Assembly (NCBI RefSeq): GCF_002162035.1
Contig: NZ_CP021138.1
Span: 124,001 to 188,000, forward strand
Source: Sulfuriferula sp. AH1
Lineage (GTDB): Bacteria; Pseudomonadota; Gammaproteobacteria; Burkholderiales; Sulfuriferulaceae
Reading direction: 5' to 3'
DNA: 64,000 nt
Below the pieces are notes generated by a model. The model was not told the origin of the DNA. It saw only the letters and a list, made by a program, of their open reading frames with translations, and searched no databases. A program made the translations under genes and the position numbers. Below, one piece after another: positions 6,831-11,145 of the stretch. How positions within the stretch are numbered: the first letter of the stretch is position 1; every line of letters begins with the position of its first letter.

Positions 6831-6965
6831 TGGACTTCACCCGCTTCAGTAGACACATTATGATGTAGAAACTGAACAGGAGAGAAGCCAATGAGTAGCG
6901 CAAGATATACCGCCGAATTCAAGGCAGAAGCAGTCAAACAAGTCACCGAGCGCGGGCATGGTGTG
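6831..6965 (+). mobile_element. Remnant of the left end of an IS3-family insertion sequence
   Basis: The sequence TGGACTTCACCC at 6831 looks like an IS3-family terminal inverted repeat. It is followed 60 bp later by the first codons of a typical IS3-family OrfA. Similarity stops inside orfA at about 6965. No right end, orfB or target duplication can be found, so this is a deletion relic and not a working element. It fills most of the 344-bp gap between the CsgG operon and the SagB gene. Confidence 0.7.
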
Positions 6966-7073
6966 GTTGTGGATGGTGGCTTGAGATTGTCTGCCGGAAA
7001 GCCTTGTGCTGCCAGCCATGAGGTGAGTGTGGGCAATAGGATCATGGCCGGGTCTTTTCAGGTGCGGGGATAG
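6891..7073 (+). pseudogene. IS3-family transposase OrfA fragment
   Basis: The first 23 or so codons (beginning MSSARYTAEFKAEAVKQV, then TERGHG) are the N-terminus of an IS3-family OrfA helix-turn-helix protein. After about 6965 the frame stays open for another 36 codons but no longer resembles a transposase, and it runs into the end of the opposite-strand SagB gene. A ribosome-binding site (GGAGAG) remains upstream. The fragment cannot encode a functional recombinase. Confidence 0.75.
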
Positions 7074-8692
7074 GGCGGCAGGTTGGCGATGCGCTCGTCA
7101 GTGAGCGGGTAGCCGACGGTAAAGTGGTACATCGACTGGAATGTGGTGTCCTGCAGGCCCAGCAGTTCGTGGCAGGTATCGTCGAAGTAGCAGCCGATGC
7201 CGGTGCCGCGCAGGCTGGCGGCCTCGGCTTGCAGGTACAGCACTTGGCCGAACAGGCCAGCTTCCCAGTACAGTTGCCGGTAGCGCCAGGGGGCGTTGTG
7301 CAGGGCTGTGTCGAATTCAGCCAGAATGGCCAGGGTGAAGGTGCTGTCGGCGGCGATGGCCTGATGGCAGCTGATGGTTCTCAGCGCTTTGCCCAGATTG
7401 GCTTTGGCGAGCAGGTATAACGGCAGTGGTTCGGGGCAGCCGTCGGGCTTGCGCCAGAGGAAATCTGTGCGCATGGTGGCCTGCATTCGCGCTTGGGCGT
7501 CGGCGCTGCGCGGCAGCGCGTAGATGCCGGGCGCGAGGCCGTCGATGCGGTGGACGAACAGTACCGGATGCACGCGCGGTACTTCGTTCCATACATCCCA
7601 GGGCGTACCGGAGTCGGGTAGCAGCGCTGTGAGCATGGTGTAGAAACTGTCGGCATCCTGCGTGAAGCGGGCGTCGAAACGCTGGGCGCTGCGACGCTGG
7701 CGGATCAGGGTGGCTGCCGCCATGCTACAGGTTGATGCCAAGGCGGACGTTTCCGGGCGGTACATTGCAGGCTGCGTTGCCGGTTTGCGGCTGGCGGCGG
7801 CTATGTCGTCTATGATAGGCCAGCGGTACATGGGGTGGGCGTCGAGTATGTTGGCTTGCCCGCGCCAGTCGGTTTGTGTTGAGTTGCGCAGCCAGGATGC
7901 GGTTGTATCCGCGTCCGGTGCAATGGTGATTTCCAGCAGCAGCTCGGCTTCCTCGCGCTCGGCGCGGGGAAAGTTGGCGTCTCTGTCCAGCCCCAGCCAT
8001 TCTGCCAGTTGTTGCTGGCTGACAGCATCGGCGATGCGTACATGCCAGCCCAATACAGCGGCAGCATAGCGCAATGCGCCGATGGCGTGGCCGGTATCGA
8101 GCTGGCAGTAGCGGAATGCGCGTTCGCCGTACTTCCATGCTTCGCGCCAGGTGATCGACGAAATGCCGACCAGCAGGCCGGGCTGTGCGGCAGGTGCGGC
8201 TGCGGTAATGCGGCAGCGCCGTTCCAGCGCATGGTCGCGGCTCAGGTAGTGGTAAACGCCGTCTTCCAGCTCGGAGATATCGCGGCTGATGACATAGGCT
8301 TCGGTCGGGTGCAGGTTGCCGCTGGACGGGTTGCAGCGCACGGCCCAGCGATCGGGGCCGTATTCCTTCCACGCGGACAGGCCGAATGCCAGCTCCAGCA
8401 TGGCGGCGACGTGATCGAGCGTGAGCGGCTGCGCTGCCACAGCGCCGGGTGTATGCAATGCGGCGAAGCTGGCGGTTAATCGATCTGCGATCATCGGCAG
8501 GCGGATGCGCGGTGCGCCGCTGAATTCGCGAAACGGGTTGGGCTGTGCGCTCCAGTCCAGGGTTTCCGGGCCGGCGGCGTAGCGTTCCAGACGGTGTTTG
8601 CTACGCTGGTGATAAGCAACAATCTTGGTCAATGACGAATCCGCACCCGCTGCAGGCTGGGTGCGGCCGATGTCGTCAGGTGTGGCTGTCAT
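7058..8692 (-). CDS. SagB/ThcOx-family (double nitroreductase-fold) oxidoreductase
   Basis: This is a 544-residue flavin-dependent oxidoreductase of the SagB/ThcOx type, with two tandem nitroreductase-like halves (about residues 60-290 and 330-535). Recognisable segments are the early RSKHRLERYA, the FMN-site-like RCNPSSGNLHPTEAYV, and the C-terminal GTGIGCYFDDTCHELLGL. SagB-type enzymes oxidise azolines during peptide toxin maturation, but no YcaO cyclodehydratase or precursor peptide is visible here, so the substrate is unknown. The start at 8692 was chosen because it lies 16 bp after the preceding gene; an upstream Ser/Lys/Arg-rich extension would overlap it. It is the last gene of the three-gene operon facing nifH. 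Confidence 0.8.
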   Translation of the reverse strand: MTATPDDIGRTQPAAGADSSLTKIVAYHQRSKHRLERYAAGPETLDWSAQPNPFREFSGAPRIRLPMIADRLTASFAALHTPGAVAAQPLTLDHVAAMLELAFGLSAWKEYGPDRWAVRCNPSSGNLHPTEAYVISRDISELEDGVYHYLSRDHALERRCRITAAAPAAQPGLLVGISSITWREAWKYGERAFRYCQLDTGHAIGALRYAAAVLGWHVRIADAVSQQQLAEWLGLDRDANFPRAEREEAELLLEITIAPDADTTASWLRNSTQTDWRGQANILDAHPMYRWPIIDDIAAASRKPATQPAMYRPETSALASTCSMAAATLIRQRRSAQRFDARFTQDADSFYTMLTALLPDSGTPWDVWNEVPRVHPVLFVHRIDGLAPGIYALPRSADAQARMQATMRTDFLWRKPDGCPEPLPLYLLAKANLGKALRTISCHQAIAADSTFTLAILAEFDTALHNAPWRYRQLYWEAGLFGQVLYLQAEAASLRGTGIGCYFDDTCHELLGLQDTTFQSMYHFTVGYPLTDERIANLPPYPRT

Positions 8693-8708
8693 GCCTGATG
8701 CACGGCGA

Positions 8709-9296
8709 TCAGACCGGGCGGTTTTCGCGGATCTTGATCGGGCCCATGATCTTGAGGCCTTCTTCGAAGCTGATTTCTTTCCATTTGGCGGAGAAGAATG
8801 CCGCTTTGTCGACGATGGCATCGAGTTTGCCGGCTGTGTCGAATTTTTTCAAGTCGCTTTTTTCTATGCGGAGCATGTCCAATAGCTCATTGTATACCGT
8901 TGCTTCGTCCAGCGGCATGACCCAGAAGGTCGCGCCGCCGTATGGTATCTGGTACTTTTCGGAGATGTCGAGGTTGCCGGCAAAGAAGAAGTATTTGCCC
9001 ATCGGTGACAATTTGTCGCCAACCTGTTCGCATAACAACTTCAGGTGAGCGAGTGATGGCGCGAAACCGGCGAGGAACGGAATGGTGGTTTCCCCGGCGG
9101 AAGCAACCATCATGACCTGATCGAGCTTGATTTCGGGCGGGCGTTTTTCGTCGGCCATGGATTCCTGGAATGCCAGTGCAATTTCACCGCGGAAGCCGAA
9201 ACGGCCGGGTTTGGTGGTTGCGCCTTTGAATACGGGGCTGAGCAACAGGCCTTGCGCGTCCAGCTCGGCAAATGGGGTTTCGGTGATGAGGGTCAT
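8709..9296 (-). CDS. Uncharacterised 195-residue protein of the nifH-divergent operon
   Basis: I do not recognise this family. It is a soluble-looking protein of 195 residues with no signal peptide or membrane helix, many acidic residues, aromatic clusters such as GKYFFFAGNL, and one cysteine (in LKLLCEQ). The N-terminal 75 residues look strand-rich (LLLSPVFKGATTKPGRFGFRGE) and the C-terminal half looks helical. A clear AAGGAG ribosome-binding site precedes the start. It lies between a degenerate receiver gene (56 bp) and the SagB/ThcOx oxidoreductase (16 bp). It may therefore be a partner or substrate-handling protein of that enzyme in a nitrogen-fixation setting. This is inference from position only. 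Confidence 0.75.
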   Translation of the reverse strand: MTLITETPFAELDAQGLLLSPVFKGATTKPGRFGFRGEIALAFQESMADEKRPPEIKLDQVMMVASAGETTIPFLAGFAPSLAHLKLLCEQVGDKLSPMGKYFFFAGNLDISEKYQIPYGGATFWVMPLDEATVYNELLDMLRIEKSDLKKFDTAGKLDAIVDKAAFFSAKWKEISFEEGLKIMGPIKIRENRPV

Positions 9297-9352
9297 GGGA
9301 TACTCCTTGGGTTGTGCAGAACATCTGCGGTTTAATTAAATTTAACTGTGTG

Positions 9353-9778
9353 TCAGCTTCGCACTACCGGGATGCTGATCGGCACCGCCCGTCCAAGCGC
9401 GGAATCTACCTTGCGGCGTACGGTTTCTATCCTTAGCGGTGTCAACAATGTGCCATCGGCTCCTTGCGCCAGCGCTGCCTTGACGGCGCTATCGTCGGCA
9501 CTGTCGCAGACCAGCAGTATCCTGACGTTGTTCATGGCGGCTTTTATCAGATTGATGAGCGTCGCGCCTTCGCTGCGTATCAGCCCGATCCCCAGCAATA
9601 CCAGATGCGGCGGCCATGCCTGCGATTTGTCGATAGCGGCGGAGACGCTCGACAGCACATGAGTTTCGTTTTCATCGGCCAGCATGAATTGCAGCCCCAT
9701 GCTGTTGATCTCGTCGCTTTCCACTACAAATACGCGCTTGTTTTCTATCGAGCGCTGACTATCTACTCCGATCTGCAT
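9353..9778 (-). CDS. Degenerate receiver-domain (pseudo-receiver) protein
   Basis: This is a 141-residue protein with the fold pattern of a CheY-type receiver and no output domain. The start at 9778 was chosen for its AGGAGA ribosome-binding site. The key residues are missing. The phosphoacceptor position reads LVLLGIG with Gly63 instead of Asp. The switch Thr is replaced by Cys91 in ILLVCDS. The conserved Lys is replaced by Thr113 in GADGTLLTPL. It cannot be phosphorylated in the normal way and probably works by protein-protein contact. It is the first gene of the leftward operon facing nifH and lies just downstream of a sigma-54-like candidate promoter. Confidence 0.8.
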   Translation of the reverse strand: MQIGVDSQRSIENKRVFVVESDEINSMGLQFMLADENETHVLSSVSAAIDKSQAWPPHLVLLGIGLIRSEGATLINLIKAAMNNVRILLVCDSADDSAVKAALAQGADGTLLTPLRIETVRRKVDSALGRAVPISIPVVRS

Positions 9779-9833: not shown

Positions 9834-9849
9834 AGCAAGCTTCATTCCC
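9834..9849 (-). promoter_or_regulatory. Candidate sigma-54 -24/-12 promoter facing the pseudo-receiver gene
   Basis: On the minus strand the sequence reads GGGAATGAAGCTTGCT. It has the invariant GG and GC at the correct spacing and a perfect TTGCT at -12. The -24 half is only partly consensus (GGGAAT for TGGCAC). It lies 55 bp before the start codon of the pseudo-receiver gene and about 100-150 bp from the two NifA-type sites. Confidence 0.45.
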
Positions 9850-9951: not shown

Positions 9952-9967
9952 TGTATCGTTTGCTACA
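9952..9967. promoter_or_regulatory. NifA upstream activator sequence 1 (TGT-N10-ACA)
   Basis: TGTATCGTTTGCTACA fits the NifA-binding consensus exactly. It lies 110 bp upstream of the nifH -24 element, within the normal range for NifA acting through DNA looping. Confidence 0.85.
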
Positions 9968-9981
9968 GAGACAGGGCATTT

Positions 9982-9997
9982 TGTGGGTTTTGCAACA
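9982..9997. promoter_or_regulatory. NifA upstream activator sequence 2 (TGT-N10-ACA)
   Basis: TGTGGGTTTTGCAACA is a second exact match to TGT-N10-ACA, 30 bp from the first (about three helical turns, same DNA face). It lies 80 bp upstream of the nifH -24 element. Confidence 0.85.
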
Positions 9998-10076: not shown

Positions 10077-10092
10077 TGGCACGGCAGTTGCT
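10077..10092 (+). promoter_or_regulatory. Sigma-54 (-24/-12) promoter of nifH
   Basis: TGGCACGGCAGTTGCT is a perfect -24/-12 element (TGGCAC, five bases, TTGCT). Transcription should begin near 10103, which gives a leader of about 146 nt before nifH. Confidence 0.93.

Positions 10093-10236: not shown

Positions 10237-11145
<909 letters not shown>

Follow-up and report, generated by a model that had tools for sequence, protein, structure and literature searches.

The described systems closest to the locus analyzed here are accessory genes of nitrogen fixation in Azoarcus BH72 and Pseudomonas stutzeri A1501 (papers are cited by PMC number and represented by their accessible portions). In Azoarcus BH72, azo0536 and dcrH1, located behind draT, were induced under nitrogen fixation while draT itself was not; azo2278, encoding a protein with two nitroreductase domains, was induced 490-fold (PMC8467165). 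PnfA-like proteins were reported in diazotrophs only, and the mutant had 23% of nitrogenase activity (PMC2820453). We analyzed a 64,000 bp stretch of the genome of Sulfuriferula sp. AH1 (NZ_CP021138.1, positions 124,001 to 188,000; hereafter the window), where the genes for a stand-alone pseudo-receiver (REC), a 195-residue protein (P195), and a SagB-like oxidoreductase with a double nitroreductase domain (SagB) lie divergently from nifH. With moderate confidence, we interpret them as an accessory nif operon that is under NifA/sigma54 control and runs away from nifH, with products that would guard or tune nitrogenase at low oxygen.

In the openly licensed PMC literature, we found neither a description of the operon or of a role for P195, nor a link of SagB/ThcOx to nifH, nor a truncated hemoglobin divergent from nifH, nor a hemoglobin in an operon with draT and nifHDK; one paper mentioning both SagB and nitrogenase appears to be unrelated. 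The accessible portions of PMC7341956 and PMC8951365 contain nothing on these genes. Within the same limits, azo2278 and azo0536 are not named in the main text of the Azoarcus transposon sequencing paper (PMC9769520), and two earlier papers on Paraburkholderia phymatum do not name its P195 gene Bphy_7752 (PMC5979394, PMC5748707).

Linkage to nif genes and the control region

A class sample of 369 evenly drawn genomes was searched; those with a nifH match at E ≤ 1e-100 (n = 32) were counted as nifH-positive, and a genome without such a match may be incomplete. P195 was found in 11 of the 369 genomes, all 11 nifH-positive (Fisher p 3.5e-13, or 4.0e-12 leaving out the own genome; all p values given here are indicative only). 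Among the own genome and its relatives, it was present in 14 of 61 genomes. REC (E ≤ 1e-14) was identified in six sample genomes, all nifH-positive, adjoining and divergent from nifH in each. SagB-type proteins (E ≤ 1e-40) were encoded in 41 genomes, 20 of them nifH-positive, versus 12 nifH-positive among the 328 SagB-negative genomes (odds ratio 25, p 5.6e-14). Within the nifH-positive set, SagB was present in 10/11 genomes with P195 versus 10/21 without it (p 0.023).

Named species were scanned with the P195 alignment, and the best 80 of 164 relatives are referred to as named loci (handles beginning with L denote loci). The earlier note on this DNA, made from the sequence alone, had proposed a search for conserved linkage in other diazotrophs, and such linkage was evident: nif genes were found in 75 of the 80 named loci and nifH was divergent within 3.5 kb in 65. 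No nif gene was seen in L056, L069, L076, L099, and L116; L076 and L116 had IscS-/IscU-like neighbors, matches of a kind that stands outside the nif name set behind the count of 75. Two queries taken from L032 and labelled NifS and NifU were rejected as such, being IscS and IscU by NCBIfam; therefore, matches listed as NifS/NifU are only IscS/IscU-like. The identities of the NifA, NifB, NifV, DraG, and DraT queries were upheld (PF07357 and TIGR02662 for DraT/DraG).

On plasmids, P195 was found in 10 of 72,556 records: five of Paraburkholderia, two of Cupriavidus taiwanensis, two of Bradyrhizobium, and one of Methylococcus. Eight of the hosts are rhizobial, by listed source or by species; the remaining two are a methanotroph and P. 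aromaticivorans, the latter with nifH adjoining. Six of the ten plasmid regions were inspected, and P195 was located among nif genes in five. A 16.6 kb stretch of a C. taiwanensis plasmid contained nod genes and, in an incomplete gene table, no listed nif gene.

The region between the operon and nifH carries a sigma54 −24/−12-like site facing the operon, two NifA-type sites, and the sigma54 promoter of nifH (Table 1). At the corresponding place, the operon-facing site has two mismatches in L025 and one in L026. Promoters were counted in 65 unique intergenic regions shorter than 700 bases, including that of the window (five of 70, of at least 700 bases, were dropped). An operon-facing sigma54 site was present in 26, 57, and 65 of the 65 regions at up to one, two, and three mismatches, respectively, versus shuffled means of 0.6, 4.5, and 17.9. 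All 65 regions had at least one NifA-type site (shuffled mean 4.7). Neither pattern exceeds chance over the whole window; the argument therefore rests on place and conservation.

Expression data are available for P. phymatum, where two P195 copies (Bphy_7807 and Bphy_7752, each 51% identical to P195 of the window) are divergent from the two nifH copies. In nodules of the nifA mutant, their log2 fold changes were −11.11 and −11.54, respectively, compared with −10.05 for nifD and −7.40 for nifH. The two P195 values are the largest numeric ones among the 142 plasmid genes of a table ranked by value, in which about 10 genes without any reads in the mutant are given as NA and P195 is labelled a "hypothetical protein"; behind Bphy_7752, the genes for an ankyrin and a zinc-ribbon protein had values of −7.11 and −7.72 (all from PMC8305402). 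These published data from P. phymatum support the NifA dependence of P195 orthologues.

Genes and proteins of the operon

The gaps between REC and P195 and between P195 and SagB are 56 and 16 bp, respectively. The start of SagB was set at ATG 8692 rather than at the mechanical open reading frame start 8821 inside P195 because the same start is found in the relative L025 and yields the 16 bp gap. The earlier note had described three leftward genes with these gaps, divergent from nifH and encoding a degenerate receiver, an unrecognized 195-residue protein, and a double-nitroreductase SagB/ThcOx enzyme; all of this was borne out by the coordinates and family searches. As an account of the whole operon, it had missed the start of a likely fourth gene behind SagB. 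In the close relatives L025 and L026, an intact ankyrin gene follows SagB as the fourth gene of the operon (the L025 protein is ankyrin by Pfam). By eye, an ankyrin gene seems to begin at 7045 in the window, its first residues resembling the ankyrin-repeat protein of these relatives, and to have been broken off near 6957, where it meets a transposase-like remnant; the stub, which is too short, gave no tblastn matches at 1e-5.

Table 1. Positions of the features of the locus and of SIR2-type proteins in other nif regions (window coordinates unless a locus is named)
Feature	Coordinates	Strand	Evidence or remark
REC, stand-alone pseudo-receiver	9353..9778	-	141 aa from ATG 9778; PF00072
P195, 195 aa	8709..9296	-	no Pfam/NCBIfam matches; AlphaFold2 model, pLDDT 92.4
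SagB-like double nitroreductase-domain oxidoreductase, 544 aa	7058..8692	-	TIGR03605, PF00881, tree
Likely 5' stub of ankyrin-repeat gene	6957..7045	-	by eye, versus L025 and L026
Transposase-like open reading frame start	6891..6958	+	PF01527, 20.1 bits, below cut-off of 24.1
Sigma54 −24/−12-like site facing the operon	9834..9849	-	GGGAATGAAGCTTGCT, 3 mismatches
NifA-type site TGT-N10-ACA	9952..9967		pattern match
Second NifA-type site TGT-N10-ACA	9982..9997		pattern match
Sigma54 promoter of nifH	10077..10092	+	0 mismatches
nifH, divergent neighbor	10249..11145	+	TIGR01287, 450.3 bits (cut-off 394.35)
SIR2-type protein	L031:9055-9879; L036:16531-17391		SIR2_2
SIR2-type protein	L194:4812-5675; L197:5927-6769		annotated SIR2 family

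P195 gave no matches at E ≤ 1 in Pfam or NCBIfam and none to PADLOC models; it is 94% identical to P195 of a Sulfuriferula metagenome-assembled genome. The AlphaFold2 model, built from 61 sequences, had a mean predicted local distance difference test score (pLDDT) of 92.4 and a predicted template modeling score of 0.88; residues 191–195 were the sole stretch with pLDDT below 50. Conserved residues were concentrated in the segments FGFRGE, ERPP, and EATVYNEL and in the disordered C-terminal ENRPV end, which looks like a docking tail. A second P195 branch, with 24–29% identity to P195 of the window, was also found in nif regions, for example in L041 with the gene order REC–SagB–rhodanese/ankyrin–P195, though in L042, another locus of this branch, no nif genes were seen within 18 kb. 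Distant P195 proteins (52–54%) of seven loci from Thiobacillus-, Hydrogenophilales-, and Sulfuriferula multivorans-type genomes (L072, L098, L105, L107, L110, L112, and L114) adjoin iscS-iscU-hscA-type genes, with nifV further along and nifH not adjoining P195.

REC matched PF00072 with 37.6 bits (cut-off 30.2) and has the receiver fold. At the phospho-acceptor position expected for the family, Asp is replaced by Gly in the window and by Gly or Ser in all 21 aligned rows; the phosphorylatable Asp of response regulators is thus missing from all of these rows. In four Methyloversatilis-type loci (L070, L090, L092, and L095, near 250–1540), a pseudo-receiver is encoded several kb from nifK and away from P195; three of these loci have it near nifE.

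SagB matched PF00881 with 53.4 bits (cut-off 23.5) and TIGR03605 with 108.8 bits (cut-off 78.4) and is predicted by family to be of the flavin mononucleotide (FMN) type. From 77 SagB loci, 73 open frames of at least 480 residues, comprising 50 different proteins, were used for a tree. Lys187-Tyr188, presumably the catalytic pair, was present in all 51 aligned rows (the window protein entered twice). The nif-linked label required six changes on the tree versus a shuffled mean of 16.9 (none of 500 shufflings was as low), in a row set biased by the retrieval of many linked rows through P195. A clade of 24 rows (support 98/96) contained only 21 nif-linked and three other nifH-positive rows, and all 15 nifH-negative rows fell outside it. 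Most nif-linked SagB forms thus fall in their own diazotroph clade. On the tree, genome G210 has nif neighbors and should not have carried the label "unlinked"; the same may hold for G073, where NifV- and NifA-like matches lie about 4–6 kb off. L169 of genome G301 adjoins the 24-row clade in the tree; its SagB gene is next to IscU/IscS-like and NifV-like genes, and no nifH was found in G301 at E ≤ 1e-100, possibly because the genome is incomplete or its nifH is divergent.

Of 27 nif-linked loci, 21 had an ankyrin gene within 3 kb on the SagB strand (19 of the 25 distinct genomes), with the stub of the window scored as a miss; none of 14 nifH-negative loci had one, and it was absent near SagB in L171. 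From these counts, members of the SagB diazotroph clade tend to be accompanied by a partner of their own. The earlier note had reported no YcaO protein beside SagB, which held for the locus and for the fetched loci: none was found in 175 loci (84 with SagB; some flanks of only 1.5 kb) besides a distant genomic copy. The latter, the sole YcaO match of the genome, is on the same contig at a distance of about 1.57 Mb and exceeds the cut-off for NF040716, the ribosomal protein S12 accessory factor.

The widespread proteobacterial form of the operon is REC–group II truncated hemoglobin–P195–(DraT–DraG)–ArsC/Spx-like–SagB–ankyrin. In Methylococcus sp. EFPC2, the annotated archetype, the genes leading away from nifH encode a response regulator, a group II truncated hemoglobin, P195, a Rieske protein, a small protein, an ArsC/Spx-like protein, the nitroreductase (SagB), GlpE, a second small protein, and ankyrin. 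DraT–DraG is added in Methyloglobulus morosus (L048) and Rugosibacter (L049). The SagB match of L052 was rejected as an archetype, being only a 41-residue remnant, and the archetypes are therefore L048, L049, and L190. In the 80 named loci, some of which are on short contigs, the P195 strand was examined up to 6 kb from P195: globin (query PF01152) was found in 45, DraT in 35, DraG in 35, the ArsC-like protein (query TIGR01616, nitrogenase-associated) in 28, SagB in 15 (including the L052 remnant and a contig-end fragment in L089), and REC in 11. Since the same position elsewhere holds more genes, the window operon is a reduced form of this fuller operon. In L172, a hemerythrin-domain protein (PF01814; 8813-9259) is encoded near nifH between a SIR2-like protein and SagB, at the spot held elsewhere by globin. 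A SIR2-type protein of about 274–287 residues recurs in nif regions (Table 1).

Proposed role and alternative explanations

The conserved linkage, the control sites, and the published NifA dependence indicate a NifA-controlled accessory nif operon, and the operon behaves like other NifA-controlled accessory nif genes. Two proposals of the earlier note are sustained in this way: an accessory nif operon, by linkage, control region, and NifA-dependent P195 orthologues, and control DNA common to the operon and nifH, by the conserved sigma54 and NifA sites. Its third proposal, a redox or protective module, did not gain the same footing; redox or oxygen protection is the likeliest role of the operon, as we infer. 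Upon NifA activation, P195 would be made in step with nitrogenase, and the operon products would guard or tune nitrogenase at low oxygen rather than build it. P195 would most likely lack catalytic activity and serve as a partner protein, possibly to the Fe protein, in contact with either nitrogenase or the Fe protein. Together with ankyrin, SagB may form an FMN oxidoreductase that uses a small molecule or a thiol as substrate in a flavin-dependent step, REC may be a phosphorylation-independent adaptor, and globin, where present, would bind or handle O2 or NO.

A bolder reading, which we regard as tentative and rather doubtful, is that P195 founds a novel class of proteins guarding nitrogenase, with a fold not described before, and partners the Fe protein under the control of NifA. 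With the pseudo-receiver, the globin, and the SagB–ankyrin flavoenzyme, it would constitute an oxygen/redox switch independent of DraT/DraG and common to beta-rhizobia, methanotrophs, and free-living betaproteobacteria. P195 marks a gap in the nif gene inventory, occurring sample-wide only with nifH and being located across from nifH in nitrogen fixers of widely differing kinds; the gap is underlined by the largest numeric NifA dependence in the accessible table for a legume symbiont's plasmid. When nitrogen fixation is moved into new hosts, the chief difficulties are oxygen and control; if P195 does protect or tune nitrogenase, it would be relevant to such transfers.

Several observations weigh against an accessory nif operon with a nitrogenase-guarding role. 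The window's own operon promoter is weak, with three mismatches, a level reached by about one quarter of shuffled regions. P195 is absent from 21 of the 32 nifH-positive class genomes, the sample genomes are related and not independent points, and at 20 of the 80 named P195 loci, no other gene of the operon was seen on the P195 strand within 6 kb. The P195 alignment contained neither an invariant Cys nor an invariant His, a finding that speaks against a metal or redox center. The structure prediction proposed in the earlier note gave a confident P195 model and, with Foldseek and VIA-align 2, no clear relative in the PDB (no match at E ≤ 0.001). As for SagB, the nif-linked rows L131, L135, L138, and L142 lie outside the diazotroph clade, among nifH-negative rows; ankyrin was found near SagB in one of 10 nifH-positive loci mostly labelled unlinked; and all nine nifH-positive "unlinked" SagB loci lacked a sigma54 site with up to one mismatch in the 700 bases upstream.

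Among the alternatives, a somewhat unlikely one is that SagB is a general nitro- or quinone-reductase detoxifying reactive nitrogen or xenobiotics, with no specific tie to nitrogenase. The enzyme type is indeed not nif-specific, since 21 of the 337 class genomes without a nifH match carry the same architecture, with varied neighbors in the inspected loci; however, most nif-linked forms belong to a separate clade with its own ankyrin partner. It is highly improbable, and already disfavored, that the three genes are unrelated neighbors with a common divergent promoter region: gene content does vary, and P195 and SagB can sit apart, but the grouping recurs, with various gene orders, in both beta- and gammaproteobacteria, the co-occurrence statistics speak against chance neighbors, and all six REC-positive sample genomes also have SagB.

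P195 could instead be an accessory factor of the DraT/DraG switch-off, the operon regulating ADP-ribosylation of NifH, as the 35 named loci with DraT and DraG beside P195 would suggest. We consider this improbable. No DraT match was found in the window genome and six P195-bearing close relatives, while the same query was positive in 12 of 22 genomes; P195 is therefore kept without DraT, which argues against an obligate link. DraT was present in 6/11 P195-positive versus 10/21 P195-negative nifH-positive class genomes; thus, the two are not associated. Hardly probable, too, is a maturation of P195, in which SagB would modify a peptide or protein of the operon, for example by dehydrogenating a residue of P195 or of its C-terminal tail. 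Membership in TIGR03605, the conserved Lys-Tyr pair, the adjacency of the two genes, and the presence of SagB in 10 of 11 P195-positive sample genomes agree with it, but SagB is near P195 in only 15 of 80 loci, one remnant and one contig-end fragment included, no YcaO adjoins SagB in the fetched loci, and the P195 tail is retained both with and without a nearby SagB.

Comparison with known systems

The window SagB shares its domain family (TIGR03605), the SagB-type nitroreductase domain, and the presumably catalytic Lys-Tyr pair with the SagB/ThcOx azoline dehydrogenases of TOMM clusters. It is unlike them in having two nitroreductase halves per chain and a link to nif, and no YcaO cyclodehydratase is found in its cluster. 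Its sole match among solved structures was 3eo7, a putative nitroreductase presumably from Anabaena; the match (E = 4e-26) extends over the first half and the closing part of the second. As in a NifA/sigma54 regulon, both the −24/−12 promoter and the TGT-N10-ACA sites were found, and of the DraT/DraG system no DraT match was found in the own genome.

The name dcrH1 presumably denotes a hemerythrin-type protein, which, like the operon globin, would be of an O2-binding type. The draT-azo0536-dcrH1 genes of Azoarcus BH72 are likewise accessory genes in a nif cluster; they differ from the window in that its genome is without DraT, and the accessible portions of the source contain no description of REC, P195, or SagB (PMC8467165). 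The azo2278-azo2279-azo2280 group of the same strain likewise includes a two-nitroreductase-domain protein strongly induced on nitrogen fixation (PMC8467165); azo2278 may be an orthologue of the window SagB and belong to the same clade. PnfA of P. stutzeri A1501 is likewise divergent from nifH and NifA–sigma54-dependent; its size of 31.7 kDa distinguishes it from P195 (PMC2820453), and by size fit, it may correspond to the SIR2-like protein encoded near nif.

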